A stretch of 64,000 nt of DNA, taken from NCBI GenBank assembly GCA_017355425.1, contig CP070233.1, forward strand, positions 1,777,501-1,841,500, read 5' to 3'. This DNA is from Dolichospermum sp. DET69 (GTDB taxonomy: Bacteria > Cyanobacteriota > Cyanobacteriia > Cyanobacteriales > Nostocaceae). The position numbers were made by a program, and so were the translations under genes. Shown piece by piece: positions 1,890-54,836 of this stretch. How positions within the stretch are numbered: position 1 is the stretch's first letter; each line of letters begins with the position of its first letter. The notes under the pieces are model-generated. The model was not told where the DNA came from and searched no databases. It saw nothing but the letters and a program-made list of their open reading frames with translations.

Positions 1890-2343
1890 AGAATACCCGG
1901 TAAGTGGAAAACTCAGCGGCTTGGCTCCCTGAGAGGGAAACGACACGAGCGGTTTTAACCGCTTTGAATCTTTTTTCATTACCGCCTTGGAGTTAAGAAA
2001 TTCGGGGTACTTTTGTGCTGTACTTTCAACGGGACAATTACCGATTCAAAATTCCCAACTCTGTACGCATAATGTGTTGCTCACAAAGAGCCTCCCTTTC
2101 GGGGTGATGTTAGCTGAATGCCTCCGGCACGCTGGCGCGAACGTCAATGTTTTAAGAGCTTTTTAGACTTGCAACACTGTTTCAGTGACTTTAAAACTGT
2201 TTAATTGCAAATGACAGAGCAGGGAACTAGCTACGCATCCCATGGTGTCGTGACTCAAAAAACGTAGTCAGTGAAGACTTAGACTGGTCAGTACAGCTTG
2301 TAATTTCTTACAAGCTCAGTCCCTTTAGGGCTGAGTTACTGAC
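1890..2343 (+). ncRNA. Structured RNA element, copy A (HEARO / IscB omega-RNA-like)
   Basis: This is one of three near-complete copies in the window; the others are 51555-51990 on the minus strand and 54396-54836 on the plus strand. Shared landmarks in order: a GGGAAACTCAG-type 5' segment, a GCGGTTTTAACCGC hairpin, ATTACCGCCTTGGAGTT, TGTACGCATAATGT, a CCTCCCTTTCGGGG hairpin, GACAGAGC, GTGTCGTGACTCAAA, GGTCAGTACAGC, and a 3' hairpin on CAGTCCCTTTAGGGCTG ending in ACTGAC. Peripheral stems differ between copies while the core is kept, as expected for an RNA. Copy A carries a repeat insertion near 2117-2150. No nuclease ORF is attached. Assignment to the HEARO/IscB omega-RNA class is from memory of its features and is tentative. 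Confidence 0.5.
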
Positions 2344-2357
2344 ACCATCTTCTATAA

Positions 2358-2588
2358 TTGAGGGCTATATGGCAATATCGTTTTTGGGAACATTTAATTA
2401 GAGATGAAATTGATTTTCAAAATCACGTTGAATATATTCATTATAATCCAGTAAAACATGGTTTGGTAACAGCACCAAAGGATTGGGAATATTCCAGTTT
2501 TCATCGCGCTGTGCGTCAAGGTATCTATGACATGATGTGGGGTGCGGTTGAGGAAATTATTTTTGATGATGATATTGGCAACGAGTAG
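2358..2588 (+). pseudogene. C-terminal fragment of a REP-associated tyrosine transposase (RAYT, IS200-like Y1 family)
   Basis: The frame encodes IWQYRFWEHLIRDEIDF, then HVEYIHYNPVKHGLV and DWEYSSFHR. This is the highly recognisable C-terminal half of RAYT/TnpA_REP proteins. The N-terminal half with the HUH metal site and most of the Y1 domain is absent; the frame starts about 15 bp after the end of the RNA element. The fragment is therefore not functional as a transposase. It is followed at once by a GTTGGGTT palindromic repeat of the kind that RAYTs are known to be associated with. Either the RNA element inserted into or beside the RAYT gene, or the 5' part was deleted. Confidence 0.8.
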
Positions 2589-2660
2589 GTTGGGTTGAAT
2601 GAAATGAAACCCAACATTATAATACCGATTGGTGGTGTTGGGTTTCGTTCTTCAACCAAA
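2586..2660. repeat. REP-like palindromic repeat, left copy flanking the DUF262 gene
   Basis: The stretch contains TTGGGTTGAATGAAATGAAACCCAA, a palindrome with a GAATGAAAT loop. It continues into AATACCGATTGGTGGTGTTGGGTTTCGTTCTTCAACC. The last roughly 40 bp recur as a direct repeat at 4458-4497, on the other side of the DUF262 gene. Related GTTGGGTT/AACCCAAC pieces occur at 21674-21702 and 23108-23124. Confidence 0.7.
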
Positions 2661-2674
2661 TCTACAACTAGAAA

Positions 2675-4342
2675 TTATGTACAATCATCATCTAAAGTCA
2701 CCAAAGCAGATATTGGTATATCGAACCATAAATCCAACGATGTTAATAGTTCCGTATTTTCATCTTGGATTAATGTGTTTGCAAAAGTAACAAGTAATTT
2801 TGCTCTTTCATTTATGAAAGCATTGAAATTATCCTCAAAGGTATTTGAAGGGCATAAAGCACTGTCTAAAATATATTCTAATGACTTTTCTTTTGGCATC
2901 AACTTGACATATTGTGACGGTTTTTTAGCTGATATTTTTTTATTTTCAGAACTATTCAAAAAACAAAAATTAGCTAGGCAATTAATAAGACTATCCTCGA
3001 ATTTTAGTTTTAGATATGCCTTTGGATAAATATGATGAAATTCTGTTCTGTTATATTTTTGTAAGACTTTATCTAGGTCAATATTTTGTCCTGATAAAAA
3101 AGATTTCGGATTATTATTAGCAAGTAATAAAACAAAGGTTTTAGTGTTAATGTTATCAGAACGAAATCGGTTATTTATAAAGAAATCTTTATCTATCTGA
3201 CACTCAATTTCTCCAAAACTGTTATCTTCGCCATTTTTTAGTTTGATGATTTCTTCAATATCATGTATAATAACCTTTTTAGCTTGAATACTATATCTAT
3301 TAGTAAAACAAGACCTCCAAAACCATTTCTTTATTTGATTATATACTTTACCATCATACGAAATTTCTTTTCCATCATGTTCAGCAAAATAAGCCGACAA
3401 AGGAATTATAAGTCCAGGATATGGAAGGTTTTTTAAAGACGCAATTTTTAACTGTCTTTTCATAAAATCAATTGCACCAAAAATTCCATTTCTAACTGTT
3501 GGAAAAGCTGCTCTTATTTCTTGTCCACTTAACTCTAATAAACTTTCTGGAGTAGTTTCTTTTTTAAGAATAGCTGCTGTACATTTTAATATTAAATCAC
3601 AATCTTCCCCTACTTCAGAAAAACCAAACTCTTCTAATTCTTCTTTCAAAGTTCTGAAATTTTCTAATAAGTCAAAATCTTCATTCCATGTCCAGGCAGA
3701 AAGTAGTTGAAGTGTATCAAGTTTTGTCCCAAAACGATTAACACGCTCAAAAACAATAGCAACAATAGGTCTATCTTCTGTTTTTAATATCTGTGCGAGA
3801 ATGGAGACTTGTTTAAATATGTCACAAAGTTTATCTAATCTTATAATTTGTTCTTGAGTAAATTGTTCTGTAGCACTTCTGTATTTTACAGTGTCAAACA
3901 ATACATTTAGAGGAAAGTGTTTTCCTGCTATCACTTCCTTATCACGTAATGCGTAAAATTGACTTTCTTGAACATCTTCTCTTGCATCTAAATCAAAATA
4001 TATTCCAGTCCAGTCATTTTCTTGTGTTGAATTTAACTTTGTCTGAAATACTGAAAAAATAGATGTAAGTCTTTGCTGACCATCTAAAACATAATCTATA
4101 GGGTAATCTTCCTTCGGGTTTGGAAGATCAAAAGCTCCAAGTTTTCTTTCAGTTGCAAGTTTAGAGTTTGTTCTCCAGAATAATAAAGAACCAAATGGGT
4201 ATTTTTTATAAATACTGTCCATTAAATATGCTACCTGATCCATATCCCATACAAAACCACGCTGGAAAGCTGGGATTCTAATGCTACCATTACTTACTAA
4301 TTCCAAAAGTTCACTGATAAAATAAGGTTCATATTTCATCAT
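2675..4342 (-). CDS. DUF262 / DUF1524 (GmrSD-like) protein, probable type IV restriction or defence enzyme
   Basis: The product is 555 aa. The N-terminal DUF262 domain (about residues 5-230) has IRIPAFQRGFVW, the partner motif IYKKYPFGSLLFW and VLDGQQRLTSIFSVF, the ParB-fold NTP-binding/nuclease signature. The C-terminal part (about 430-510) has TEFHHIYPKAYL followed by LANFCFLNSSENKKISAKKPSQY, the His-rich HNH-like pattern of DUF1524. This order is that of GmrS-GmrD fusions, known to cleave modified phage DNA. Inferred role: defence against modified DNA; substrate unknown. The gene is monocistronic in this window, lies between REP-like direct repeats, and shares its strand and neighbourhood with the DGQHR-like pair. 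Length and both motif sets look complete. Confidence 0.8.
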   Translation of the reverse strand: MMKYEPYFISELLELVSNGSIRIPAFQRGFVWDMDQVAYLMDSIYKKYPFGSLLFWRTNSKLATERKLGAFDLPNPKEDYPIDYVLDGQQRLTSIFSVFQTKLNSTQENDWTGIYFDLDAREDVQESQFYALRDKEVIAGKHFPLNVLFDTVKYRSATEQFTQEQIIRLDKLCDIFKQVSILAQILKTEDRPIVAIVFERVNRFGTKLDTLQLLSAWTWNEDFDLLENFRTLKEELEEFGFSEVGEDCDLILKCTAAILKKETTPESLLELSGQEIRAAFPTVRNGIFGAIDFMKRQLKIASLKNLPYPGLIIPLSAYFAEHDGKEISYDGKVYNQIKKWFWRSCFTNRYSIQAKKVIIHDIEEIIKLKNGEDNSFGEIECQIDKDFFINNRFRSDNINTKTFVLLLANNNPKSFLSGQNIDLDKVLQKYNRTEFHHIYPKAYLKLKFEDSLINCLANFCFLNSSENKKISAKKPSQYVKLMPKEKSLEYILDSALCPSNTFEDNFNAFINERAKLLVTFANTLIQDENTELLTSLDLWFDIPISALVTLDDDCT

Positions 4343-4457
4343 AAGGTTATGTTAGGGGTTAAGACTTATTGTTTACAGATAAAAATGTATCATATATTGA
4401 TTAAAAAATTCCCGTATCTTATATACATAGATCGTTAAACCCAAGATTAACCCCAAA

Positions 4458-4503
4458 ATACCAATAAGCGTTGTTGGGTTTCGTTCTTCAACCCAACCTA
4501 CGA
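4458..4503. repeat. REP-like repeat, right copy flanking the DUF262 gene
   Basis: The sequence contains AATACCAATAAGCG followed by TTGTTGGGTTTCGTTCTTCA and ACCCAACCTACG. It is in the same orientation as, and about 85-90% identical over 40 bp to, the copy at 2621-2660. It lies just upstream of ileS; an apparent upstream extension of the ileS frame reads through it but is not a real coding start. Confidence 0.7.
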
Positions 4504-4551
4504 TTTATAATTGATCGGATAACCTGCAAACCTACATTTAGGCATGAGATT

Positions 4552-7500
4552 GTGACCGAAACTGGAAAATACAAAGATACCGTCAACTTACCCAAGACTA
4601 ACTTCGATATGCGGGCAAACGCAATCAAGCGCGAACCCGAAATCCAAAAATTCTGGGAAGAAAACAACATTTATTCTCAACTGGCTGAAAACAACCCCGG
4701 CGAATTATTTATACTGCACGATGGACCCCCCTATGCTAACGGTCAATTGCATATTGGTCATGCCTTAAATAAGATTCTCAAAGATATTATTAACCGCTAC
4801 CAATTGCTAAAAGGTCGTAAAGTTCATTACGTTCCAGGGTGGGATTGTCACGGATTACCCATTGAGTTGAAAGTTCTGCAAAACATGAAACAAGCAGAAC
4901 GGCAAAATCTCACACCTTTGCAATTGCGTCAAAAAGCGAAAGAGTTCGCGTTGAAAACCGTAGACGAACAACGAGAAAGCTTTAAACGCTATGGGATTTG
5001 GGGTGATTGGGAAAATCCTTATTTAACCTTAAAACCAGAATACGAAGCCGCGCAAATTGGCGTATTTGGGGAAATGTTCCTCAAAGGTTATATTTATCGC
5101 GGTTTGAAGCCTGTGCATTGGAGTCCTAGTTCTAAAACCGCTTTAGCAGAAGCTGAGTTAGAATATCCTGAAGGTCACGTTTCTCGTAGTATTTACGCCA
5201 CTTTTCCGGTTATTAAGCTTGCCGAAGGGTTGAAATCTGTTTTAGAGCCATTTATGCCTGATTTGGGCGTAGCTGTGTGGACTACTACTCCCTGGACTAT
5301 TCCCGGTAATTTGGCTGTGGCTGTGAATGGTGCGTTGGAGTATGCGGTTGTGGAAGTAAGACCCCACCCCCTAACCCCCTCCCCGCAAGCGAGGAGGGGG
5401 GATAAGAAAGAGGAAGTTGCTTCAACCTCAGAAGCAGGAAATGAAGAATTTACCTCCCCCTCTCTGCTCGCGGAGAGGGGGACTGAGGGGGTGAGGTTTC
5501 GATATCTCATCGTTGCGGCTGAGTTGGTGGAAGGTTTAGCTGCTAAGTTGAATATGCAGTTAACGGTAAAGGCTAAATTTTCTGGTCAGGATTTGGAACA
5601 TACTACTTACCGTCATCCTCTTTTTGACCGTGAAAGTCCGGTGGTGATTGGTGGTGATTATATCACTACTGAGTCGGGGACTGGTTTGGTGCATACTGCT
5701 CCTGGTCATGGTCAAGAAGACTATATTGTTGGTCAGCGTTACGGTTTACCGATTCTTGCCCCTGTTGATGATAGTGGGAATTTTACGGATGAGGCTGGTA
5801 AATTTTCTGGCTTGAATGTTTTGGGTGATGGGAATCAAGCGATTATTGATGCTTTGCATGAAGCTGGTTCTCTGTTGAAGGAGGAGGCTTATCCTCACAA
5901 GTATCCTTATGATTGGAGAACGAAGAAACCGACGATTTTCCGCGCTACTGAACAATGGTTTGCTTCTGTGGCTGGTTTTCGGGAGGAGGCTTTAAAGGCT
6001 ATTTCATCTGTGCGTTGGATTCCGGCACAAGGTGAAAACCGCATCACGCCTATGGTAACAGAAAGATCCGATTGGTGTATCTCTCGTCAGCGTTCTTGGG
6101 GTGTGCCTATTCCTGTGTTTTATGATGAAGCCACTGGGGAAGTTTTGCTGAATGCGGACATTATTAACCACGTTCAAGCTATCATTGCCGAAAAGGGTTC
6201 TGATGCTTGGTGGGAGTTGTCGGTTGCGGAGTTGTTACCGGAAGCTTACCGCAATAATGGCAAAACTTACCGCCGCAGTACAGATACAATGGATGTGTGG
6301 TTTGATTCTGGTTCTTCTTGGGCAGCGGTAGCCAAGCAAAGACCGGAGTTATGCTATCCTGCTGATATGTATTTGGAAGGTTCTGATCAACATCGCGGCT
6401 GGTTTCAATCTTCTTTGTTGACAAGTGTGGCGGTTAATGGTATTGCCCCTTATAAAACTGTACTAACTCATGGTTTCGTCTTGGATGAAAATGGCCGCAA
6501 AATGAGTAAGTCGGTGGGAAATGTGGTAGATCCTCAATTGATGATTCAAGGTGGGACTAACCAAAAACAACAACCTGCTTATGGTGCTGATGTTTTGCGG
6601 TTGTGGGTTTCTTCGGTTGATTATTCTGGTGATGTCCGGTTGGGTGGTAACATCATCAAGCAATTAGCTGATGTAAGAAATAAGATTCGCAACACAGCAC
6701 GGTTTTTATTGGGTAGTTTGCATGATTTTGATCCTCAGAAGGATGCTGTAGCTTTTGATGATTTGCCAGATTTGGATAAGTATATGCTGCACCGCATTCG
6801 TGAGGTGTTTAATGAGGTGACGGAAGCTTTTGATAGTTTCCAGTTTTTCCGCTTTTTCCAAACTGTGCAGAATTTCTGTGTGGTGGATTTGTCGAATTTC
6901 TATTTAGACGTAGCCAAAGATAGATTGTATATCAGTTCTGCTGATAGTTTCCGTCGTCGGAGTTGTCAAACTGTTTTGCAAATTGCTTTGGAGAATTTAG
7001 CCAGAGCGATCGCCCCAGTTTTGTGTCATACTGCGGAAGATATCTGGCAATTTATCCCCTACGAAACTGCTCATAAATCAGTTTTTCAAGCTGGTTGGGT
7101 GCAACTTGAGGATAAATGGGAAAATCCCGAATTAGCGGAATTTTGGAAAACACTGCGACGGATTCGCGGTGATGTTAATAAGGTTTTAGAACAAGCGCGG
7201 ACAGAAAAACTGATTGGTTCTTCCTTAGAAGCTATCGCTTTAATTTATCTCAGTGATGAAAAATTACGCGCTGCTATCGAATCGTTAAATGTTAACGGGA
7301 ATGGGATTAATGAATTACGCTATTTATTCCTAACTTCTGAAGTGGAATTATTAGATAATCCGGACGCATTAAAAGGATTAAAAACTTTGCGGGTTCAAGG
7401 TGAAGATAATTGGGATATTGGGGTAATAAATGCAGCCGAGCAAACCCATAACGGTATATCTTACACCAAATGCGATCGCTGTTGGAATTATTCTACCCAT

Positions 7501-7569: not shown

Positions 7570-7594
7570 TGGCAAATCACAGCGGTTTCCTCTG

Positions 7595-7954
7595 TTATGA
7601 GGCATAATCCAATTTTCTGGCTATCTGACTGATCAGCTTTGCCTTTAAAAAAGTGGGCCTCATAACACCGGGAAGTGCTGTATAATTCGTGGAGACGTTA
7701 TATAAAACGTCTCTATTCCACTTTATCTCTAGTTGAACTTGTAGAGGATTAGGCCTTGGTAAGTTAGAAAGACGGAGATGATGTTTTGGTGAGGCGATTT
7801 TTTTAGCCTGGGTTGCTAAAATAGGTTCTGGTACAGCAAGACGATGTTGCGTTAATACTGGCATTTCTTGCCAACAACTCCGGCAAAACCAGTAATTCTC
7901 AGCACCACGGATATGGTGTAAAAGGGAGTCGGAACAGCAAGGACAAAGAGGCAT
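7595..7954 (-). CDS. Small zinc-ribbon protein conserved in cyanobacteria
   Basis: The product is 119 aa. The N-terminus has two Cys pairs, CPCC and CRSC (MPLCPCCSDSLL...WFCRSCWQEMP), spaced as in a zinc ribbon. The rest is basic and without recognisable domain. It is convergent with ileS with only 25 bp between stop codons. The function is unknown; the ribbon suggests nucleic-acid or protein binding. I recall similar short zinc-ribbon proteins in other filamentous cyanobacteria, but cannot name a family. Confidence 0.7.
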   Translation of the reverse strand: MPLCPCCSDSLLHHIRGAENYWFCRSCWQEMPVLTQHRLAVPEPILATQAKKIASPKHHLRLSNLPRPNPLQVQLEIKWNRDVLYNVSTNYTALPGVMRPTFLKAKLISQIARKLDYAS

Positions 7955-12189: not shown

Positions 12190-12229
12190 AAAAAAAGATT
12201 TTTAAATTAGTGGAGTTGAATTTATAAAT

Positions 12230-13738: not shown

Positions 13739-13855
13739 CTGTTTTTTACGAATTTCTCGATAATTGCGAGGAAGGGTGTACAATAAAAAATGCTGTCTTT
13801 CATTAGATTAGGGAATTCATGGGATCATCCTAAAACGTAGTAATACGGATTAGAT

Positions 13856-14012
13856 GTGAACCAGACCACCCTGAGCGACTTGCCCACAAGCTATGTCGAA
13901 GGGTAGTCAAAGGGTAAACGTTATTTAAGTCATGACACCTTGGGATTCGCTAGTTCCATGCTCTGTCGGTACTGATTAAACATTCCGAAAGGAACGTGTC
14001 TTTACCTTAACA
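13856..14012 (-). ncRNA. Degenerate fragment of the structured RNA family
   Basis: On the minus strand it contains GGTGTCATGACTTAAATAACG, the counterpart of GTGTCGTGACTCAAATAACG in the complete copies. It is preceded by an AGAGCATGGAACTAGCGAATCCC segment and followed by a long ACCCT...AGGGT stem and GGTCTGGT. The 5' part (GCGGTTTT hairpin, CGCATAATG) and the final CAGTCCC hairpin are missing. It is probably dead. Confidence 0.55.
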
Positions 14013-14078
14013 AACTTAGATAACTAGGTTGAAGCAAACTTTACTTAGAAATAAGGATTGGTCAAACCGACCACAAAC

Positions 14079-14111
14079 GTCAATAGTAGGAAATATTTTC
14101 CTGCTATTGAC
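14079..14111. promoter_or_regulatory. 33-bp palindrome 34 bp upstream of rpsN
   Basis: GTCAATAGTAGGAAA and TTTCCTGCTATTGAC form a nearly perfect 15-bp stem with a TAT loop. There is no T-run after it, so it is not a classical terminator for this strand. It lies in the untranslated leader of rpsN and could be an attenuator, a protein-binding site or simply a repeat unit. Confidence 0.45.
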
Positions 14112-14145
14112 TACGAAACACTACATTATTCTGGGATTAGGACGT

Positions 14146-14448
14146 ATGGCGAAGAAGAGTATGATTGAGCGCGAGAAGAAACGCGCCAGAATGGTAGCTA
14201 AGTATGCTGACAAGCGCGAAGCACTACTAGAAGAGTTCAAAGCAGCAGAAACTCCGTTGCTGAAGCTAGAAGTTCACCGTAAAATTCAACAATTACCCCG
14301 CAACAGTGCGCCTACTCGTAAGCACAACCGTTGCTGGTTAACTGGTCGTCCTAGAGGCTTTTACCGTGATTTCGGACTATCTCGCAACGTACTCCGGGAA
14401 TGGGCCCATGAGGGTCTTTTACCTGGTGTTGTTAAGTCTAGCTGGTAG
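14146..14448 (+). CDS. rpsN: 30S ribosomal protein S14
   Basis: The product is 100 aa, [17 protein letters not shown] ... [40 protein letters not shown], the typical C-terminal S14 signature for binding 16S rRNA in the head of the small subunit. The ATG at 14146 is preceded by TTAGGA at a good spacing; the frame is open further upstream only through non-coding repeat sequence. It lacks the CXXC zinc motif, so it is the long, zinc-independent bacterial type. The gene stands alone, outside the main ribosomal operon, as usual in cyanobacteria. Confidence 0.96.
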
Positions 14449-16844: not shown

Positions 16845-16987
16845 AATAGGTAATAGGTAATAGGTAATAGGTAATAGGTAAAAATTCTTGTCCCACAACT
16901 GACCACTGACCACTGACCACTGACCACTAACAACTGACCACTAACAACTGACCACTGACCACTGACCACTGACCACTGACCACTGAC
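16845..16987. repeat. Heptanucleotide tandem arrays (STRR type)
   Basis: Arrays of TAATAGG followed by CACTGAC/CAACTGAC heptamers lie between ftsX and def. Such short tandemly repeated heptamers are characteristic of heterocystous cyanobacteria. Similar arrays are at 14449-14512, 47170-47455 and 48961-49145. Confidence 0.85.
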
Positions 16988-17045
16988 AACGAACAATTAA
17001 CGATAGAATTAAATTAGATTATTCATCATTAAGCCATCAAAAACC

Positions 17046-29496: not shown

Positions 29497-29539
29497 GTCA
29501 GTAACCCAGCCCTAAAGGGACTGAGCTTGCAAGAGAAAT
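29497..29539 (-). ncRNA. 3'-end fragment of the structured RNA family
   Basis: On the minus strand this is ATTTCTCTTGCAAGCTCAGT followed by CCCTTTAGGGCTGGGTTACTGAC, identical to the terminal 43 nt of copies B and C. The rest of the element is absent. The fragment lies just after the kinase stop codon, where its CAGTCCC/GGGCTG hairpin could act in 3'-end formation. Confidence 0.65.
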
Positions 29540-40716: not shown

Positions 40717-43590
40717 ATGGATAAAAAAGACTGTTTTCGCAACTTTAGCTATACAGACTGGATATTAACTGAAACCCAATTTAATCCAGAATATTTGCAT
40801 AGCCGAGAAACTATTTTTACCATTGGTAATGGCTATTTAGGGACAAGAGGAACTTTTGAAGAAGGTTATCCTCGGGCATTATCAGCTACATTTATTCACG
40901 GTGTTTATGATGATGTTCCTGTCGTTTATACCGAACTTGTTAACTGTCCAGATTGGCTACCATTAGTAGTGATAATTGAGGGAGAACGCTTTCGCCTTGA
41001 TCAAGGTAAAATATTAAAATATAACCGTCAACTAGACTTATATCATGGCATTCTCAGCCGTTATTTACGTTGGTGTAGTCCCAATGGTAAAGTTATAGAT
41101 ATCCATTTTGAACGCTTTGCTAGTTTAGCCGATCAACATCTAGTAGGGCAACGTTGCCAATTAACACCAGTAAATTTTGATGGTTTAATTGAAATTCAAG
41201 CCAGTATTAACAGCTACTCAGAAAATCAAGGTTTTAACCATTGGGAAGGATTAGATCAAGGTAAAATTACACAAGGATTCTGGTTACATAGTCGCACTCG
41301 CAACAGCCGCATAGAGGTGGGTATGGCGGCTAAAATAACCATCTTGGGAACTGACGCGGACTTACAAATCAATACTACACCTGGTTATCCTAGTTTGAAT
41401 GCCACCGTTATCGGTCAAATTCAACAGACGATCACCATTGTAAAAATTGTGAGTATTTTTACATCTAATGAAATTGAAAACCCAGTTGTAGCCGCTCAAG
41501 AAAAACTCGTAAATATCCCCGATTATCTCACATTAATTAATGCTAATAATCAGGCTTGGGAAGAAGTTTGGCAACAAAGCGATATTATCATTGAAGGAGA
41601 TATCACAGCGGCTTTTGCAGTCCGTTACAATCTGTTTCAGTTACTAATTGCTGCACCTAGAAATAATGATCAAGTCAGTATCCCTGCGAAAACCCTATCT
41701 GGCTTTGGTTATCACGGACATATTTTTTGGGATACGGAAATTTTTATTCTGCCATTTTTTACATTTACTCAACCAAATTTAGCCCGTAACTTGCTCAGTT
41801 ACCGTTATCACACTTTACCAGGAGCGCGACGCAAAGCCGCACATTATGGGTATCAGGGGGCAATGTTTGCTTGGGAGAGTGCGGTAACTGGAGATGAAGT
41901 GACACCGCGCTGGTCACTACGCGGTGATTTTTATGCCGAAGATATCCGCATTTGGTGTCGTGATCGAGAAATTCATATTAGTGCAGATATTGCCTACGCT
42001 ATATGGTATTATTGGCAAGTTACAGGGGATAATGAATGGATGGGAGATTATGGTGCGGAAATTATTTTAGATACCGCAATTTTCTGGAGTAGTCGAGTTG
42101 AATTTAATCCCCAATTAGAATGTTATGAAATTCGGGGAATCATTGGAGCGGATGAATATCACGAATTAGTCCATAACAATTGCTTTACTAACCGGATGGT
42201 ACAATGGCATTTAGAAAAAGCTTTAATAGTCTATGATTGGCTACATTCCACTTTCCCAGAAGTAGCCATAAAACTGGAACAGAAAATCCAAATTACCTCC
42301 GAAGTCCTCTCTCATTGGCGAGAAATTATCGCTAAAATGCTGATTCTTCACAACCCAGAAACTCGACTAATTGAGCAATGTGAGGGATTTTTCCAACTAG
42401 ATGATCTTGATTTATCTAAATACGAACCGCGAGAAAAATCAATTCAAATTATTTTGGGGATGGAAAAAACCAACACAGCACAAGTAATTAAACAACCAGA
42501 TGTATTAATGCTTCTGTATTTGATGCGGGAATCTGCCGATTTTCCCTATAATCAGCAAACATTACAGGTAAATTGGGACTATTATGCACCCCGGACAGAT
42601 ATTAGTTATGGTTCTTCCTTGGGTCCAGCTATTCACGCCATTTTAGCCGCAGATTTGGGCAAATCAGAGGAGGCTTACGAATGCTTTATGCAAGCAGCAA
42701 TGGTAGATTTGGAAGATAAACGCGGAAATACCCAAGATGGTATACATGGTGCTAGTGCTGGGGGCATTTGGCAAGCTGTAATATTCGGTTTCGGTGGCAT
42801 CCAATTTCGGGAAAACGCCCTTGTCGCTAATCCCCACTTACCCCCAACTTGGTCAAGGCTGAAATTTAAATTACAATGGCACGGTAAATGGCATGAATTC
42901 GATTTGCGTCAGGAGTTGAAAAAGGCTAGAAAAACCAATATCCGAGGCGTGATTTTTGATTTAGATGGCGTGTTGACTGATACCGCAGAATATCATTATC
43001 AAGCTTGGCAAAAGTTAGCAAATGAGGAAGGTTTACCCTTTAACCGAGAAACTAATGAAGCCTTGCGGGGTGTATCTCGTCACGCTTCCCTGATGTTGAT
43101 TCTGGGGAATAGAGAATATTCAGAAACGCAAATTCAGGAAATGATGTCCCGGAAAAATGATTATTATGTAGAACTGATTCACAATATTACACCCACAGAT
43201 TTATTACCAGGGGCAGAGGCTTTGTTGGATGAATTGCGTCAATCTGGGATTAAAATAGCCATTGGTTCTGCTAGTAAAAATGCCCGCATGGTGATTGAAA
43301 AATTGGGGATTGGGAGTAAGATAGATGCGATCGCTGATGGTGATACTGTACAACAAGCGAAACCAGCACCGGATTTATTTCTTAATGCTGCAAATCAGCT
43401 AGAAATTCCCGCAGATGAATGTGTCGTATTTGAAGATGCAGCCGTAGGGATTACAGCCGCTAAAGCAGCAAATATGTGGGCGATAGGCTTGGGACCAGAA
43501 GACAGAGTGGGGGCTGCTGATGTGGTTTTGCCGAATTTAGCAGGTGTAAAATGGGAGGAATTGTCAGTAATAATTCTGAATAATAAGTAA
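40717..43590 (+). CDS. GH65 disaccharide phosphorylase fused to beta-phosphoglucomutase
   Basis: The product is 957 aa. Residues about 1-735 are a glycoside hydrolase family 65 phosphorylase (maltose/trehalose/kojibiose type): TIGNGYLGTRGTFEEG, FHGHIFWDTEIF-like GYHGHIFWDTEIFILPFF, and IIGADEYHELVHNNCFTN with the catalytic Glu in the DEYHE block (family consensus GPDEYH). Residues about 743-957 are a HAD beta-phosphoglucomutase: GVIFDLDGVLTDTAEYHYQAW (nucleophile Asp), AIGSASKNARMVIEKLG, CVVFEDAAVGITAAKAA. The fusion would convert a disaccharide + phosphate to glucose + beta-glucose-1-P, then to glucose-6-P, in one polypeptide. The disaccharide cannot be read from sequence. It pairs with susA 43 bp upstream. 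Confidence 0.92.
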   Translation: MDKKDCFRNFSYTDWILTETQFNPEYLHSRETIFTIGNGYLGTRGTFEEGYPRALSATFIHGVYDDVPVVYTELVNCPDWLPLVVIIEGERFRLDQGKILKYNRQLDLYHGILSRYLRWCSPNGKVIDIHFERFASLADQHLVGQRCQLTPVNFDGLIEIQASINSYSENQGFNHWEGLDQGKITQGFWLHSRTRNSRIEVGMAAKITILGTDADLQINTTPGYPSLNATVIGQIQQTITIVKIVSIFTSNEIENPVVAAQEKLVNIPDYLTLINANNQAWEEVWQQSDIIIEGDITAAFAVRYNLFQLLIAAPRNNDQVSIPAKTLSGFGYHGHIFWDTEIFILPFFTFTQPNLARNLLSYRYHTLPGARRKAAHYGYQGAMFAWESAVTGDEVTPRWSLRGDFYAEDIRIWCRDREIHISADIAYAIWYYWQVTGDNEWMGDYGAEIILDTAIFWSSRVEFNPQLECYEIRGIIGADEYHELVHNNCFTNRMVQWHLEKALIVYDWLHSTFPEVAIKLEQKIQITSEVLSHWREIIAKMLILHNPETRLIEQCEGFFQLDDLDLSKYEPREKSIQIILGMEKTNTAQVIKQPDVLMLLYLMRESADFPYNQQTLQVNWDYYAPRTDISYGSSLGPAIHAILAADLGKSEEAYECFMQAAMVDLEDKRGNTQDGIHGASAGGIWQAVIFGFGGIQFRENALVANPHLPPTWSRLKFKLQWHGKWHEFDLRQELKKARKTNIRGVIFDLDGVLTDTAEYHYQAWQKLANEEGLPFNRETNEALRGVSRHASLMLILGNREYSETQIQEMMSRKNDYYVELIHNITPTDLLPGAEALLDELRQSGIKIAIGSASKNARMVIEKLGIGSKIDAIADGDTVQQAKPAPDLFLNAANQLEIPADECVVFEDAAVGITAAKAANMWAIGLGPEDRVGAADVVLPNLAGVKWEELSVIILNNK

Positions 43591-44093
43591 TAAATACCGC
43601 CAAAATAGTCGGTTTTAACCGACTTGAGCTATTAGACGGGGAATTTATTCCTTGGCTCAAGTCTACCACTATAGATGGATGGTTAACTTTCATACCCGCC
43701 CGGAACTGAAGTTCCGGTCTCATAGCTAAAGTGCGTTAAAACGCACTGTAATGAAATCGAAATCAAAAATTATCCTATTTCTCGAATAAATACCGCCAAA
43801 ATAGTCGGTTTCAACCGACTTGAGCTATTAGACAGGGAATTTATTCCCTGGCTTGAAGGTACTTGACACTGTTGAGCAGTGCTAAACCTCTACAAATTCT
43901 TATTCAAACAGGGTTAATACGTGTATAATGATAAAAGATTTTTTTTCTAAACAAAACCGTAATTTTTACCCAATAAATATTTTTGTGACATATATTTAGA
44001 ATCACATAAGTGACATAAGCTAAAATGAAACTTAAATAATTCATAAGTATAAGCTGTTACACAGCTAAATCTAATATTTTCTAGCTTTTTAAA
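43591..44093. other. Intergenic palindrome cluster after the GH65/PGM gene
   Basis: It holds two direct copies of AAATACCGCCAAAATAGTCGG, followed by TTTTAACCGACTTGAGCTAT and a GGGAATTTATTCC hairpin (from 43592 and 43788, 196 bp apart). Between them lie CCGGAACTGAAGTTCCGG and GTGCGTTAAAACGCAC palindromes. The remaining 200 bp to the phosphoribosyltransferase stop are AT-rich, without visible gene. Related pieces occur inside the family-B MITEs at 53808 and 58313. Confidence 0.65.
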
Positions 44094-47166: not shown

Positions 47167-47169
47167 AGG

Positions 47170-47455
47170 ATTTTAGTTATTAGTTATTAGTTATTAGTCA
47201 TTAGTCATTAGTCATTAGTCATTAGTCATTAGTCGTTAGTCATTAGTCGTTAGTCGTTTTTTACCCATTACCTATTACCTATTCCCTGTCAACTGTCAAC
47301 TGTCAACTGTCAACTGTCAACTGTCAACTGTCAACTGTCAACTGTCAACTGTCATCTGTCATCTGTCATCTGTCAACTGTCATCTGTCATCTGTCAACTG
47401 TCAACTGTCAACTGTCAACTGTCAACTGTCAACTGTCAACTGTCATCTGTCAACT
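47170..47455. repeat. Heptanucleotide tandem arrays (STRR type)
   Basis: The arrays are TAGTTAT/CATTAGT units (47176-47253), then over twenty AACTGTC and CATCTGT units (47290-47455). The array separates the SRPBCC gene from zds and reaches into the last codons of zds (GDS*). Confidence 0.9.
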
Positions 47456-48907
47456 GTCACCTAATTTCTCTAGAATTACTTTAGCTGCACGTTTTCCAGA
47501 TTCCGTTGCTCCTTCCATGCTGTCAATATAATCTTGTTGAGTGTAACTTCCAGCTAGGAAAAAGTTAGGGATAGGTGTTTTTTGATTGGGACGGTACGCA
47601 TCCATTCCTGGTGCTTCTCTGTATAAAGACTGAGCCAATTTGACGACACTGTACCAAGTCATGTTTAAATCTCTTGAGGAAGGAAATAGTTCATATACTT
47701 GCTTAAGCACGTGATGGGCGATCGCTTCATTATTTTGTTTAATAAAAGGATCTCCCGGTGTCAATACCAGTTGCAATAATGAACCCTCCCCAGGGCGATA
47801 ATAATCTGCGGGGCTAGTTAAAGCCAAATCAGCAAAACAGGAAAAATCAGCATCAGCGGTATATAACAAATTATCTATCCCGGCCGCCTGTAGGGGTGGG
47901 GTTTCCCCGCCCTTACCTCGTTTGGCCTCATCTTGTAATTCTGTCACCCAACCATCAAAACGTAGCTGCACTGTAGCGACTGGGACAGCATCCAATTTAT
48001 AAATGTTATCAAATTCTGGCCATTTCCGCCAAGCTTGGGGTAACACTCGTTGAATTCCGGGAACATCACAAGCACAAAGATAAGCGTCAGCAGTGATAAT
48101 TTCTTCTGTATCACCTTGGGCAACTAATATACCAGTAACGTGAGTTTCTGCTTCAGATTCAGTAAACTGAATTTCTCGGACTTGACGACGGGTATATATT
48201 TTTACACCTCTTTCTTCTAGATATTTAACAATAGGTTTGTGTAAATATTCATGGGGTGAACCTTCCAACATTCGCAGAATTGAAGCTTCTGTTCTGACTG
48301 CAAAAAACTGGAAAATTGTCAACATACACCGGGCAGAAATATTGTCGCAATCTATAAATCCCAATGCGTAAGCAATCGGATTCCATAGCCGCTTAATGCT
48401 ACCTTTACTGCCTCCGTGACTGTAGAACCAGTCAGAAAAACTGATTTTATCTAATTTGCGAATAGTTTTCATTGCTCCGTCAAAGTCTACTAAACCCTGA
48501 ACTATCGGGCTAGTACCCAGAGCGATCGCATTTTGGAATTTATCCCGTAATGAAAGTTGGGAAGTAGTGAAAAACGCCTTTAATCCATTAAAAGGCGCAC
48601 CAGTAAAAAAGCGAAAATCTAACGCCCCAGTTTGTCCACCTTTATTAATAAAAGTATGGCTATGTTCCTTCAGGCGTAAATTATCCCCAGCCCCCACCTT
48701 CTGCATTAATGCAAATAGATTATAATAGCAGCCGAAAAAGACGTGCAGCCCCATTTCAATATGGTTGCCGTCACTATCTACCCAACTGCTGACTTTACCA
48801 CCCACAAACGGACGAGACTCGAAAATTTCTACCTCACAGCCCGCATCTACTAAATCTACAGCAGTTGCTAACCCAGCTAACCCCGCACCCACAATTGCAA
48901 CGCGCAT
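47450..48907 (-). CDS. zds: 9,9'-di-cis-zeta-carotene desaturase
   Basis: The enzyme desaturates zeta-carotene to lycopene (plant/cyanobacterial CrtQ type). The product is 485 aa. It has an N-terminal FAD-binding Rossmann fold ([37 protein letters not shown]), the family blocks [44 protein letters not shown] and [23 protein letters not shown], and the C-terminal FAD segment [26 protein letters not shown]. Odd feature: just before AAGIDNLL the protein reads [13 protein letters not shown], encoded by a GGCGGGGAAACCCC palindromic repeat that looks like an in-frame insertion. Membrane-associated; upstream SRPBCC gene on the same strand. Confidence 0.95.
47889..47914. repeat. GGGGTGGGGTTTCCCCGCCC repeat within zds
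   Basis: CTGTAGGGGTGGGGTTTCCC continues with CGCCCTTACC. This is a widespread cyanobacterial intergenic palindrome type. It is in frame and encodes [10 protein letters not shown] in zds. Confidence 0.65.
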
Positions 48908-48960
48908 TCCCTCGTTCCTTGTTCAGTTTCTTTACAAATTGTAACTGAATTGGTGCAGAA

Positions 48961-49150
48961 AGTTGACGGTTGACGGTTGACGGTTGTTAGTTGTCAGTTG
49001 TCAGTTGTCAGTTGTTAGTTGTCAGTTGTCAGTTGTCAGTTGCAAAAGAATATTTCTCTCCCCTGCTCCCTGCCCCCTGCCCCCTGCCCCCTGCCCCCTG
49101 CCCCCTTGCCCCCTGCCCCCTGCTCCCTGCCCCCTGCTTCCCTGCTTCCC
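48961..49150. repeat. Heptanucleotide arrays (GTTGACG, GTTGTCA, CTGCCCC)
   Basis: Three successive arrays of different 7-bp units: GTTGACG x3, AGTTGTC x about 8, and CTGCCCC x about 11. Two open frames (VVSCQLS..., LPPAPCP...) through them are repeat translations, not genes. The array ends 10 bp after the stop of a small RHH gene on the minus strand. Confidence 0.85.
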
Positions 49151-49159
49151 TGCCCTCTA

Positions 49160-49324
49160 TCACCCTCCGGCCACTTCTTCCCCCTGGGGTAAACTTCTGA
49201 TTAGCTCTCGAATTACATCTGTTGCTGGTCTACCTGTCTGTTGACAATATTTTTCTAGTTTCTCTGCTTCTTGTGTGGCTAGATTAACTGTGATACGTTT
49301 AACGGCCCATTTTTTATTTGTCAT
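49160..49324 (-). CDS. Small ribbon-helix-helix (CopG-like) protein
   Basis: The product is 54 aa: MTNKKWAVKRITVNLATQEA, then EKLEKYCQQTGRPATDVIRE and LIRSLPQGEEVAGG. The beta-strand (WAVKRITVNL), helix (EAEKLEKYCQQTG) and helix (PATDVIRELIRSL) order is that of CopG/Arc/MetJ DNA-binding proteins. It could be an antitoxin or a small regulator; no toxin gene is adjacent, and zds follows about 250 bp further on the same strand. The frame is clean and the start ATG lies in AT-rich sequence. Confidence 0.75.
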   Translation of the reverse strand: MTNKKWAVKRITVNLATQEAEKLEKYCQQTGRPATDVIRELIRSLPQGEEVAGG

Positions 49325-49672
49325 TATCATGCACTTTGCTGTATATTAACCTGAGTTAGGGAGTTTGGTGACTCAAAACAAAAATGAGACTTTGAAAGTT
49401 AGTTGGAATTAACAAGGTAACAAAAACACTAATCTTATTTAAAATCTTCAGTTTGTCAACTACTTACCCAAATAAATTTTGCGATAACCTGGCTTGAATA
49501 CTAGGAATTCCTTGTGATTGGAACCTGAGTGTGATTGATTTGACCATCAATGTGTCAATAGGGGACGGGGAATAGGGAAGAAAATAAGATCAGAACACTT
49601 TTACAAAAATCAAATTGGATTTTTATAGATATCCTCTAATTTAATTTATAAATCTTAGGTATATCTATTTCT
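49325..49672. other. Intergenic region between the RHH gene and the 539-aa gene
   Basis: AT-rich; it contains the RHH gene promoter region and the 3' flank of the 539-aa gene. A GGGGACGGGGAATAGGGAAG stretch at 49561-49580 resembles common cyanobacterial spacer repeats. No gene or RNA recognised. Confidence 0.45.
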
Positions 49673-51292: not shown

Positions 51293-52145
51293 AGAGTAAA
51301 TGAATCAAAACAAAGCGATTGAGAATGAGACTTTTGGGAATGGTTAATCTTTAAACATACCTAATCCCTTGATTCTAGAATAAAAATCTTGGCTTGCTGA
51401 TCAAGTGGCAAGTGATGGACTCAACAGGGATAATTAAACATTATTTTCCTATGTTCCCACATTCCCACCTTCTTATTCTTTTTTCCTGTCCTAATGTCGC
51501 TAAAATAAATATAAAAACATTCATACTCCCTTCCCACTAGAAGAATATAGACTAAGTCAGTAACCCAGCCCTAAAGGGACTGAGCTTGCAAGAGAAATCA
51601 AACAAGCCATACTGACCAGACCACTCGGTAAAACGAGTAGCCGTTATTTGAGTCACGACACCTTGGAATGCGTAGCTAGTTCCCCGCTCTGTCGCTTGTG
51701 ATTAAACAGTTCCAAGGTCACTGGAACAGTGTCGCAAGCTCAAACAAGCTCTTATAACAGGTCTAAGCTAACATCACCCCGCAAGGGAGGCACATCTCGT
51801 GCAAAACATTATGCGTACAGGGTTGTGAAATTTGAAATAGTAACTGTCCTATTGAAAGTGCATTACAAAAGCACACCGAATTAAACAACTCCAAGGCGGT
51901 AATCGGATCAGAATATTGACAGCGATTAAAATCGCTCGTGCCGCTTCCCTCTGGCCCCTAAAGGGACTGAGTTTCCCGCATCCCGTATATTCCTATGAAC
52001 CACGAAGGTGCGAAGGACGCGAAGGAAGAAGGAAGAGAAGGAAGGAAGAAGATATGTAATCTTATACTGGGAAGGGAGTACCAGTCCAGAGGTACGAGAA
52101 TGACCTACGGGGTATTGATAAAACTAGTTTAGGAGTTAAGAATTT
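51293..52145. other. Intergenic region between the 539-aa gene and the Fe-S carrier gene
   Basis: About half is occupied by structured RNA copy B (51555-51990, minus strand). It is followed by AACCACGAAGGTGCGAAGGACGCGAAGG and GAAGAAG units (51997-52052). The last 90 bp before the Fe-S carrier gene contain its promoter region, with AGGAG at 52131-52135 as ribosome binding site. No other gene seen. Confidence 0.6.
51555..51990 (-). ncRNA. Structured RNA element, copy B (HEARO / IscB omega-RNA-like)
   Basis: It reads on the minus strand: GCGGGAAACTCAGTCCCTTT, GCGATTTTAATCGC hairpin, GATTACCGCCTTGGAGTTG, TGTACGCATAATGT, CCTCCCTTGCGGGG hairpin, GCGACACTGTTCCAGTGACC, GACAGAGCGGGGAACTAGCT, GTGTCGTGACTCAAATAACG, ACTCG-loop-CGAGT stem (51623-51638), GGTCTGGTCAG, and the 3' hairpin with ACTGAC. 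Compared with copy C, the ACTCG/CGAGT stem replaces ACCCTGAG/CTCAGGGT and GCGATTTTAATCGC replaces GCGGTTTTAACCGC: compensatory changes that support RNA secondary structure. No nuclease gene adjoins. Confidence 0.55.
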
Positions 52146-52502
52146 ATGACACAAGCAACTCAAACTCAACAACGCGGAATTCTATTATCCGTATCTGCAT
52201 TGCGGCAGGTTAAGTCTCTTCAAGATAAGCAAGGGCAAGATTTATGCTTACGGGTGGGAGTCAGACAAGGTGGTTGTTCGGGAATGTCTTACATGATGGA
52301 TTTTGAGGATGTCAGCAAGATTACCCCTGATGATGAGGTTTTTGATTATGATGGCTTCAAAATTATCAGCGATCGCAAAAGTCTACTTTACCTTTACGGC
52401 TTAATGCTTGATTATAGTGATGCCATGATTGGTGGTGGTTTCCAATTTACTAACCCCAACGCTGCCCAAACCTGCGGTTGCGGTAAATCTTTCGGGGTTT
52501 GA
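52146..52502 (+). CDS. A-type iron-sulfur cluster carrier (IscA/SufA/HesB family)
   Basis: The product is 118 aa. The three conserved cysteines are present: [17 protein letters not shown] (first Cys) and [10 protein letters not shown] near the C-terminus (CxC). Such proteins accept and deliver 4Fe-4S clusters to targets such as photosystem I and nitrogenase partners. The start ATG follows AGGAGT at good spacing. It is monocistronic. The full name (SufA versus IscA) cannot be decided from sequence alone, as no other suf/isc gene is in the window. Confidence 0.93.
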
Positions 52503-53026
52503 CACTCCTTGTCCTAAAGGCGCGTTAGCGTTAGCGTCTCGAAGAGAGGATTCTTGGTTCAACGAGACCACTTAAACTAGATACCTTGCAGTTTCTAGCT
52601 CAGAGGTGGGACTCTCCCCAAGCGACTTTGGGTATGCCCTACTAAGAGTTGGATTTCTCCAAGTTCTTTTTTGGATTTGAAACATATCGTTTCAAAAAAC
52701 TGTTTATCTAACTCCTCTAAATCTTTTACCTACTGCGAGGTGGAGTCTAGAAAAATACAGTAGAACCGCATAGATTTAATTTTCAAGGTATGGCTAACGC
52801 CACGCTACCGCTATCAGCGTTGTCCCTTTCGGCAACTGGGTTTTTTAAGTGGTTGATTACCCTTCCCACTTACTAAATTCTACCATAAAAGCAAAAGCCG
52901 TGCTTCTAGCACGGCGCTTTAGACCCAGGTTTTTGGTAATATGATCCAATTGTCAGTTATTGGTTGCTAATTACAACTGAATAATTGACAATTGATAATT
53001 GACCACTGACCACTGACTCATAACAA
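52503..53026. other. Intergenic region with repeats and a hairpin; no gene recognised
   Basis: It contains GCGTTAGCGTTAGCG and GGCTAACGCCACGCTACCGC short repeats. The middle part has possible stems (AACTCCTCTAAA; GGGACTCTCCCCAAGCGACTTTGGG) and could be a non-coding RNA, but I cannot match it to a known family. A strong hairpin lies at 52894-52920. Before the TPR gene is a CACTGAC heptamer pair. 6S RNA, tmRNA and tRNA were considered and not supported. Confidence 0.4.
52894..52920. terminator. Strong hairpin AAAGCCGTGC-TTCTA-GCACGGCGCTTT
   Basis: A 7-bp GC-rich stem GCCGTGC/GCACGGC extended by AAAG/CTTT arms is the kind of hairpin often found as a terminator or dispersed repeat in cyanobacteria. 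Its strand is uncertain, as it could serve transcripts from either side. Confidence 0.45.
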
Positions 53027-53449
53027 ATGACTAATACTGTTGATTCCCTGTTTGATACAGGTCTAGAACGCTATAAAGCTGGAGAATCTGTACAATCTCT
53101 GATTCCTGTATTTAAAGAGGTATGCGATCGCTCTCCTAAAGCCAGTTCGGCCTGGGTTTGTCTAGCTTGGCTATATCTTCTTGATAACCAAGGGAAATTA
53201 GCTTTTAGTGCCGCTAATAAAGCCGTGAAACTCAATCCCCAAGACCCACAAGGCAGAATTAATCTAGCTTTAGCTATGTTAGAAACCGGTCAAAAAGGTT
53301 TGCGAGAACACATTGACATTGCAAAACAATTGATATTTGTCAATGAAGAATGGCAAGAAGAAGTTAAAAATAGCATTGAAGATGGTTTTACCAGAAAACC
53401 CGATTGGAAAAACTTAGCCAAAGTCAAAAAATGGTTATTTGAAGAATAA
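53027..53449 (+). CDS. Tetratricopeptide repeat protein
   Basis: The product is 140 aa. It contains TPR-like helices: LFDTGLERYKAGESVQSLIPVFKEVCDRSPKASSAWVCLAWLYLLDNQGKLAFSAANKAVKLNPQDPQGRINLALAMLETGQKG, i.e. about two and a half repeats with the W..LA..Y / A...A..LNP pattern. No signal peptide. This small TPR protein is widespread in cyanobacteria; it likely acts as a protein-binding adaptor of unknown partner. The following 83-aa membrane protein gene is 66 bp downstream on the same strand. Confidence 0.85.
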   Translation: MTNTVDSLFDTGLERYKAGESVQSLIPVFKEVCDRSPKASSAWVCLAWLYLLDNQGKLAFSAANKAVKLNPQDPQGRINLALAMLETGQKGLREHIDIAKQLIFVNEEWQEEVKNSIEDGFTRKPDWKNLAKVKKWLFEE

Positions 53450-53515
53450 GGTAATAGGTAATAGGCAAGATTTATTACTAATGACCAATGACTAATGACT
53501 AATAACTAATAACTA

Positions 53516-53767
53516 ATGAAAGACAAATTATTAAACTGGCTCAACTTCGTATTAGTCGCTGATGTTTTTCTAGTAATTTTAGGTTTTGGGTGGCTTGTTG
53601 TAGCTGTGATTGGTGATGCTTCGGGAATCAATTTAGGTTTAGATTTGTGGCACAAACTCTGGATACCAGTATTTAATCCTGCTATTGGTATATTGATGGG
53701 TGGTGCGTTATTCAGCGGTATTATTAGCTGGGTATCTAAGAAGCTGACCAAAAATGAGTTGTCGTAA
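53516..53767 (+). CDS. Small two-helix membrane protein
   Basis: The product is 83 aa. Two hydrophobic helices, FVLVADVFLVILGFGWLVVAVIG and WIPVFNPAIGILMGGALFSGIISWV, are separated by a short loop (DASGINLGLDLWHKL), with a basic KKLTKNELS tail. No motif of known function. Conserved-looking, good codon use, clear ATG. It may be co-transcribed with the upstream TPR gene although a heptamer-like ATGACTAATAACTA tract lies between. The opposite-strand frame in this region is a shadow. Confidence 0.75.
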   Translation: MKDKLLNWLNFVLVADVFLVILGFGWLVVAVIGDASGINLGLDLWHKLWIPVFNPAIGILMGGALFSGIISWVSKKLTKNELS

Positions 53768-53807
53768 ATTTTACTCATTTTTAAATCACTGAATTAATCG
53801 GCTGAAA

Positions 53808-54075
53808 GTAGGGGCAAAGCAAGAGCTTCATAAGTGTCAACTTAACGTAAAACCTACATCCCGTCGGGGAATGATAGGGTAGTGTGGCGTAAGCCATATT
53901 CCCAGTCTAATAGGCAAAGTCATCTAAAGATGACTAAATACTCGAAAATCTTTAGTCTACTTCAGTAGACTTGAGCTATTAGACAGGGAATTGATTCCCT
54001 GTCGGGTGTAGAAGCTAACAGATAAGCCATTTTTAACTTAAGTTGACACCAATGAAGCTCTTGCTAAACCCCTAC
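53808..54075. mobile_element. MITE-like element, family B, copy 1 (intact)
   Basis: The terminal inverted repeats are about 38 bp: GTAGGGGCAAAGCAAGAGCT and on to TCATAAGTGTCAACTTAA, against TTAAGTTGACACCAATGAAG and on to CTCTTGCTAAACCCCTAC inverted. The interior holds hairpins (CATCTAAAGATG, AGTCTACTTCAGTAGACT, GGGAATTGATTCCC). 268 bp, no ORF. The second copy at 58313-58803 has the same architecture but is interrupted by a family-A MITE. Confidence 0.85.
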
Positions 54076-54113
54076 AAGTAATCCACAAAAAATGGAAAGC
54101 CCTGAGATAACAA

Positions 54114-54395
54114 TTAATTTGATTGATAATCTTGACAACCAATTGCTGCTTCTGTATTCGCAACATAAGGATTTACCGTACATTTAAGACGGTGATTATT
54201 AGTAAAAAATTGGCAATTATGACAGGGAATTTTGTGCATTTTTTGAGCAGTTTTAACAGTGTCCTTGGTCGCTGTCCATAAATTCAAAAACACAATCATA
54301 ATTGTAGTCCAAGCAATAACAAAGCAAATTGGAATTAATAATGGTTGTATACTCTGAATTAGAAAAGATATAAAATTTAACATGGTATTACTCAT
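54114..54395 (-). CDS. Small membrane protein with C-terminal cysteine motif
   Basis: The product is 93 aa. An N-terminal amphipathic/hydrophobic part (FISFLIQSIQPLLIPICFVI, AWTTIMIVFLNLW) gives one or two membrane segments. A Cys-rich tail PCHNCQFFTNNHRLKCTVNP...AIGCQDYQ has four Cys and could bind metal. I recognise this as a conserved cyanobacterial small protein of unknown function. Its start ATG lies immediately next to structured RNA copy C on the opposite strand, so its promoter must lie inside or beyond that element. Confidence 0.75.
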   Translation of the reverse strand: MSNTMLNFISFLIQSIQPLLIPICFVIAWTTIMIVFLNLWTATKDTVKTAQKMHKIPCHNCQFFTNNHRLKCTVNPYVANTEAAIGCQDYQSN

Positions 54396-54836
54396 AAGAC
54401 CTCGCGGTATGCGGGAAACTCAGTCCCTTTAGGGCTGAGAGGGAAGCGACACGGGCGGTTTTAACCGCATTGAATCTTTTTTCATTACCGCCTTGGAGTT
54501 GGGAAATTCGGGGTACTGTTGTGATGTACTTTCAACGGGACAATTACCGATTCAAATTTCTCAACTCTGTACGCATAATGTGTTGCACGCGATGTGCCTC
54601 CCTTTCGGGGTGATGTTAGCTTCGACCTGTTATAAGAGCTTGTTAGGCTTGCAACACTGTTCCAGTGACCTTACAACTGTTTAATCACAAGCGACAGAGC
54701 AGGGAACTAGCTACGCATTCCGGGGTGTCGTGACTCAAATAACGGCTACCCTGAGACTATGCTCAGGGTGGTCTGGTCAGTACAGCTTGTTTGATTTCTC
54801 TTGCAAGCTCAGTCCCTTTAGGGCTGGGTTACTGAC
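54396..54836 (+). ncRNA. Structured RNA element, copy C (HEARO / IscB omega-RNA-like), best-preserved
   Basis: Landmarks in order: GCGGTATGCGGGAAACTCAG, hairpin GCGGTTTTAACCGC, ATTACCGCCTTGGAGTTGGG, GGGACAATTACCG, TGTACGCATAATGTGTTGCA, hairpin CCTCCCTTTCGGGGTG, GACAGAGCAGGGAACTAGCT, GTGTCGTGACTCAAATAACG (54725-54744), stem ACCCTGAG-ACTATG-CTCAGGGT (54748-54769), GGTCTGGTCAGTACAGCTTG, and the final CAGTCCCTTTAGGGCTG hairpin and ACTGAC (ends 54836). The 3' boundary ACTGAC is shared by all copies. The 63-codon frame inside is not a gene. The upstream flank CATAAGA is shared with copy A; copy B has CATAGGA. Confidence 0.55.

Follow-up and report, generated by a model that had tools for sequence, protein, structure and literature searches.

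RNA-only HEARO elements of IscB descent inserted before ATGA in Dolichospermum sp. DET69

A stretch of 64,000 nt from Dolichospermum sp. DET69 (CP070233.1 positions 1,777,501-1,841,500; part of a 6.04-Mb genome), referred to here as the window, contains three long copies of a structured RNA element, named A, B and C. The copies are HEARO elements (Rfam RF02033) of the omega-RNA class. They and their counterparts elsewhere in the genome are read as non-autonomous, RNA-only derivatives of an IscB OMEGA element, whose omega-RNA most likely acts in trans with the intact IscB of the same family (probability of about 0.62).

HEARO copies of the window and their IscB relative

An initial annotation of the window, made from the sequence alone, had described three long related copies and had proposed the HEARO/omega-RNA class for them. 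The copies were recovered by Rfam and by repeat searches, with refined ends (Table 1). All three scored above the RF02033 gathering score of 83 bits and covered the full 211-position model, with E-values below 1e-27, which excludes chance. Sequence likeness between them extended beyond the HEARO part. The strands given earlier (A +, B - and C +) were wrong in all three cases. The constant ACTGAC boundary, described as the 3' end, corresponds to the 5' end of the RNA, GTCAGT. In copy A, this left end lies at 2343 and the right end, TTCTT, at 1889. Two shorter pieces had been taken for remnants: the 43-nt piece is indeed a fragment, and the piece at 13856-14012 lies within a complete element that belongs to another, second HEARO family.

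Table 1. Coordinates of the features of the window.
Feature	Position	Strand	Remarks
Copy A, RNA-only HEARO element, 455 nt	1889-2343	-	Rfam match 2104-2343, 141.5 bits
399-aa open reading frame (ORF), host gene, predicted ATGA start directly adjoining copy A	689-1888	-	ATG at 1888, beside the right end of the element
Predicted 16-nt guide segment of copy A (5' flank)	2344-2359	-	Putative role, from the 5' spacer of the class (PMC9755519)
Copy B, RNA-only HEARO element, 439 nt	51556-51994	+	Rfam match 51556-51777, 140.7 bits
Predicted 16-nt guide segment of copy B (5' flank)	51540-51555	+	Putative role
Copy C, RNA-only HEARO element, 441 nt	54396-54836	-	Rfam match 54610-54836, 134.6 bits
Predicted 16-nt guide segment of copy C (5' flank)	54837-54852	-	Putative role
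93-codon ORF opened by ATGA beside copy C	54114-54395	-	
Fragment, first 43 nt of the left end of the element	29497-29539	+	100% match to 51556-51598 (copy B); matches copy C too
Second-family HEARO element, RNA-only, ~325 nt, adjoining rpsN	13821-14145	+	Boundary ambiguous by 2 nt
rpsN, 30S ribosomal protein S14, start codon beside the second-family element	14146-14448	+	NCBIfam NF006477

At a threshold of E 1e-3 or better, 70 HEARO loci were found in the whole genome, 53 of them above the cut-off, and no match was found in 14 control genomes. The loci were sorted into a main family (48 loci), a second family (14), a third family (six) and two loci that form a pair and have a broken iscB. The main family was obtained by clustering as 34 + 14 loci, the latter in reverse orientation; after turning, 12 of these 14 aligned with the rest. 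RNA-only elements with both ends made up 52 of the 70 loci, 42 in the main family and 10 in the second. Six main loci were left out of the 42 counted below: L003 carries an intact iscB, L022 a decayed iscB and L030 an internally deleted one, the right end is missing from L028 and L066, and L084 is degenerate. The second family also comprises three loci with intact iscB and one locus without a right end. In the third family, IsrB-like (RuvC-only) frames were found near five of the six loci. Inserts starting GTGCGATTCGTTG interrupt third-family loci and a decayed iscB (L022, L085, L087, L088, L089 and L090); they are group II intron-like by eye and received no Rfam call at the gathering cut-off.

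No HNH endonuclease ORF was found directly downstream of HEARO at copies A, B and C. The earlier description 'without a nuclease' is therefore correct for the window copies and incorrect for the genome, in which a search for iscB gave stop-free frames at four loci (L003 in the main family and three in family 2). The L003 product has 445 residues and matched the NCBIfam IscB profile over its whole length (E 1.3e-135), with Pfam RRXRR and HNH domains. Its RuvC and HNH catalytic motifs are intact by eye. Fourteen PDB sequences were matched, and the best seven are named IscB. The left end of the L003 element, GTCAGTAAC, and its right-end block before ATGA are those of the RNA-only main copies, in which a hairpin-rich module, present in a long and a short version, replaces iscB. 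HEARO membership and descent from an IscB element, the latter also proposed in the initial annotation, are considered secure. The main RNA-only copies look like non-autonomous derivatives produced by internal deletion of the iscB element.

The RNA fold was predicted with RNAalifold on an alignment of 37 of the 48 main loci, and 51 pairs were obtained. For 12 of the 51 pairs, at least one sequence was changed on both sides with pairing kept, and the covarying stems quoted in the initial annotation are real. When L003, L022 and L028 were removed, leaving 34 complete RNA-only copies, nine of the 51 pairs were compensatory and 98% of cells were paired. These counts come from related sequences whose events are not independent. 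The compensatory changes lie well inside the RNA, away from the ends, and are found in the RNA-only copies too (columns 218-265).

Insertion before ATGA and position relative to genes

The right-hand neighbour of the 42 complete main copies is ATGA in 41 cases and ATAA in one. Neither this insertion site nor its coincidence with start codons had been described in the initial annotation. The sites were pooled with 43 from relatives, taken from a sample of 60 loci in 14 genomes that were hand-picked among the matches listed, mostly away from iscB. ATGA was found at all 85 pooled sites, except for GTGA once and ATAA once. They shared no strong further motif, the next best position (-1) reaching 0.39 bits.

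Nine joined flank pairs were used to look for empty sites in the genus, in 15 relatives and in the own genome, and 30 loci were stored. Among these, 28 alignments cross the junction, for seven of the nine sites queried. ATGA is in place in 25 of the 28, which represent five sites: hemA (L052), L007, L008, L020 and L024. Insertion in the main family is therefore precise, next to a constant motif resembling a target-adjacent motif (TAM) and without target duplication. The empty L024 site in the sister genome G002 is 100% identical over 240 nt, which indicates a recent insertion. The sites of copy C (locus L259 in G002) and L008 are filled in G002 too, and these two insertions are thus not unique to the own genome. 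For copy A, whose left flank is repeated, no clean empty site was found in the nine-site search. Copy B was inserted before ATGA inside a dispersed repeat (at 51540-51580), with no gene start there. Its site in G002 is empty, with ATGA present, and 15 empty paralogous sites of the target repeat were found in the genome (3 mismatches or fewer over 26 nt). The fourth base before ATGA in the copy B flank differs from all 15 empty paralogues and from the empty site in G002. This change could be an escape from self-targeting, but one or two changes in 16 nt are expected at this divergence.

To compare the sites with start codons, each element was computationally excised and the length of the ORF starting at ATGA was taken, 60 codons or more being scored as a pass. 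Gene calling was mechanical and took the longest ORFs of 80 aa or more that did not overlap. The background consisted of the ATGA sites in 464 kb of the same genome. Of the 42 main RNA-only copies, 22 passed. Thirty-six of the 42 sites were eligible, lying either outside all predicted ORFs or no more than 90 nt from a predicted start and in its frame (six were left out), and 22 of these 36 passed, against 184/987 in the background (Fisher p = 5e-8). Without the in-frame near-start group, the figures were 19/33 and 127/930 (p = 1e-8). A more generous background gave 20.7%. In the relatives, L131, whose RNA was not found in the orientation used, and 14 loci without a right end by pattern were removed from the 60; 22 of the 45 scored copies passed (p = 4e-6 against the background of the own genome). 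The right ends of L144 and L182 were placed too early, at a GTGA; on inspection by eye, both open frames of fewer than 60 codons.

Ten proteins were compared with NCBIfam as a check of their starts. Profile and frame begin together for hemA, sqdB, ndhD and gnd, and for rpsN in family 2. The rubredoxin profile and the best IscA-like profile begin at residue 12. Of the ten proteins, one gave only weak matches and another no match. The start codon of sqdB is occupied by different HEARO elements with different flanks in L139 (G004) and L155 (G026), apparently through independent insertions. A third locus, L152 (G002), has the same flank as the sqdB element of G004, and its contig ends before the gene.

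Right ends were also inspected for ribosome-binding sites. The TACCGCGAGGTCTT right end, found in 14 of 43 main copies (4 of the 43 right ends were miscalled by pattern), places GAGGT 3 nt from the ATG. The TACCGGGTATT.. right ends have no 4-nt match to a ribosome-binding site, and the idea that every right end contains one is not supported. In a comparison set of iscB-bearing copies (20 hand-picked loci, L231 with a broken iscB being unscored and L124 and L125 added, to give 21 scored), GAGG/GGAGG was seen by eye in 20 of 21 right ends, against any 4-nt match in 15% of random 15-nt windows; this count is partly circular, as the end motifs were set by eye and most contain it, and related ends are not independent. 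In five iscB elements of relatives (L230, L232, L234, L235 and L245), the right end has TGGAGG five or six bases before an ATGA start codon. This is a near-perfect ribosome-binding site, and two of the five read TGGAGGAGG.

The second-family element of the window has its HEARO match at 13856-14044 (+), with 76.7 bits, under the gathering score. The rpsN product aligned with NF006477 (profile positions 1-101 on residues 1-100), and among its nearest named matches (best 80 among the matches listed) were proteins of Dolichospermum (100% identity), Aphanizomenon and Anabaena. All 15 genus relatives (15 of 15) have an empty rpsN site, the match running across the junction. Detailed alignment of 13 of them leaves a two-base ambiguity in the boundary, and neither placement affects the start codon.

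Other features of the window were noted. An apparently truncated 76-aa frame (2358-2588, +) lies beside copy A, in a region matched in many relatives; its C-terminal motif, HVEYIHYNPVKHGLV, is presumably RAYT-like. Unidentified repeats of ~70-210 nt occur at 43589-43853, 53843-54055 and 58571-58784, one set being framed by inverted arms. Long heptamer tandem repeats of the CTGTCAA/CTGACCA type occur at 47172-47460, 16885-17003 and 48954-49050.

Proposed action in trans and alternative explanations

Each copy has retained both transposon ends together with the full omega-RNA and has lost iscB. In the proposed mechanism, ATGA, directly before which the element was inserted, would serve as the TAM, and the sequence just upstream of the insertion would form the 5'-terminal guide of the omega-RNA, with a length that we take to be 16 nt. 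In about half of the main copies, where ATGA appears to be a start codon or to lie a few codons from one, the guide would be the gene's own leader, as follows from insertion at a start codon. Transcription from the host promoter would produce the omega-RNA within the 5' untranslated region (UTR), and this RNA would be loaded in trans onto IscB made from the intact copy of the same family. The complex would then cut any allele or excision scar that still holds the guide and ATGA. The filled copy would be spared because the guide is followed there by GTCA. In a many-copy chromosome, such cutting, and mobilisation in trans, may help the element to spread to its site or to stay there. Guides acting in trans with an IscB encoded elsewhere had been suggested in the initial annotation, and the intact iscB at L003 is compatible with this. 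Published work agrees with the assignment of TAM and guide. One IsrB has an NTGA TAM, TTGA being preferred at 60 °C and ATGA also being cut, and IsrB proteins from Crocosphaera and Dolichospermum, among others, have an NTG TAM (PMC9581776). HEARO nucleases were reprogrammed through the 5' spacer of the RNA, with few mismatches tolerated up to position 13 (PMC9755519). ATGA after the element is accordingly consistent with a TAM, and the flank preceding the element with a guide.

A more specific form of this mechanism, homing to start codons, is put forward tentatively. The start codon (A/GTGA) would be the TAM and the leader the guide, and the GAGG/GGAGG stretch of many right ends could replace the ribosome-binding site. 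The element could thereby enter almost silently where the leader of an essential gene meets its start codon, have its guide RNA expressed from the host promoter and persist there through IscB cutting unfilled alleles in trans, with one nuclease gene for dozens of copies.

Several observations weigh against these proposals. By the measure used, 20 of the 42 main copies do not coincide with a start codon, and by the NCBIfam comparison the start of the P-II gene (L055) lies 17 codons in. The empty site of copy C in two relatives (L199 and L209) has no ATGA, and a conserved ATG lies a few codons further 3'; likewise, the empty L029 site in one relative has no ATGA and the start is a few codons further 3'. 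At several loci, the flanks differ by at least one base from the empty sites of relatives. Family 2 has no start-codon excess (1/10, against ~27% expected from ATGGC background counts). Among the iscB-bearing copies, 11 of 21 pass the 60-codon test (10/20 when L230 and L245, which have the same flank, are merged). An excess peculiar to RNA-only copies was rejected on these figures; the excess is a property of insertion and no proof of selection on RNA-only copies. No transposase gene was found inside the RNA-only elements, and the candidates for moving them are the 16 Y1 transposase matches of the genome. Finally, 41 genomes, the own included, were surveyed with stricter HEARO filters, so that counts are lower bounds (the own genome shows 43 of its 70 loci there). 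At least 34 have HEARO at E 1e-3, and 24 have an IscB match above the curated cut-off. G009 (at least six HEARO matches; best protein match an HNH-only stretch, 8.6e-18) and G016 (at least three; best protein match 5.4e-16) have HEARO copies of the RNA-only type and no IscB above the cut-off, and a resident IscB is thus not needed for HEARO persistence.

The strongest rival, judged unlikely, is that these are ordinary elements of the miniature inverted-repeat transposable element (MITE) type. They would be moved by a Y1 transposase, the omega-RNA being kept only because it overlaps the left end, and would have no guide function; the start-codon excess would then reflect target choice or tolerance. 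This explanation is favoured by the ends common to the iscB copy, by the 16 Y1 transposase matches in the genome, by the genomes with HEARO and no IscB above the cut-off and by the start-codon excess of the iscB-bearing copies. The GAGG/GGAGG found a few bases before the start codon in many right ends also agrees with it, as insertion could spare translation. It is opposed by the compensatory changes deep inside the RNA, which persist when RNA-only copies are counted alone, and by the presence of an intact iscB of the same family.

Control elements in the 5' UTR of host genes, which would alter translation or mRNA stability, possibly through binding of IscB or IsrB, are improbable. About half of the main copies lie at start codons in sense, the targets in the own genome and relatives include hemA, sqdB, ndhD and gnd (and rpsN for family 2), and the sites of copy C and L008 are filled in G002 as well. 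The downstream gene is on the same strand at 30 of 33 intergenic sites, against 596/930 in the background (p = 0.001). At non-start copies, however, this bias is not significant (11/14 against 480/803, p = 0.18), and all junction-crossing alignments in the other relatives show an empty site, which argues against long-kept regulation. Decaying relics without function, the 'decayed elements' of the initial annotation, are the least probable: three of the 48 main loci (L028, L066 and L084) lack an end or are degenerate, the iscB copies L022 and L030 are decayed and the window contains the 43-nt fragment, but 42 of 48 loci are complete RNA-only copies, compensatory changes keep their pairing and at least one insertion (L024) is recent.

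Known systems and meaning of the RNA-only copies

Standalone omega-RNAs occur in Ktedonobacter racemifer, and ORF-less HEARO copies in Arthrospira. As in DET69, these are RNA-only copies in many-copy genomes with few iscB; the ends shared with an intact element, the empty sites and the start-codon counts were worked out here. Non-autonomous IS200/IS605 derivatives and other MITEs likewise keep both ends, have lost the internal gene and are multicopy. Unlike these, the elements described here retain the whole guide RNA, for which the flank would provide the guide. ATGA or GTGA was reportedly already given as the integration site in the 2009 HEARO paper, and standalone omega-RNAs are said to be described in the 2021 OMEGA paper.

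The elements agree with HEARO and IscB omega-RNA in sequence and structure over the whole model and have their flank where the class has its 5' guide (PMC9755519). They depart from the associated HNH ORF that the family name leads one to expect, as 52 of the 70 loci have no iscB downstream. They resemble the IsrB system (PMC9581776) in the NTGA-type TAM and the large omega-RNA; unlike in that system, the nuclease of the main family is an IscB with RRXRR and HNH, and the IsrB-like frames lie near a separate third family. A HEARO RNA of Limnospira maxima has been described as binding IsrB (PMC12286853), and HEARO among the non-coding RNAs of Limnospira indica was set aside as a mobility remnant (PMC8400943). 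In the literature searched, outside which the founding HEARO, ISC and OMEGA papers and that on IscB/TnpB spread fall, no title dealt with start-codon placement of IscB elements, and the 'start codon' passage in PMC13180657 concerns gene calling. Novelty is claimed only for three results in this genome: the counted start-codon coincidence, the mapping of empty sites and the ends common to iscB and RNA-only copies.

If RNA-only copies do act in trans with the intact IscB, they would be a natural case of one RNA-guided nuclease serving many separately encoded guides, and an intermediate stage between a transposon that carries all its own parts and a division of labour like that of CRISPR. This would also explain how such elements live beside essential genes. 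The DET69 genome combines few nucleases, many guides and mapped empty sites.

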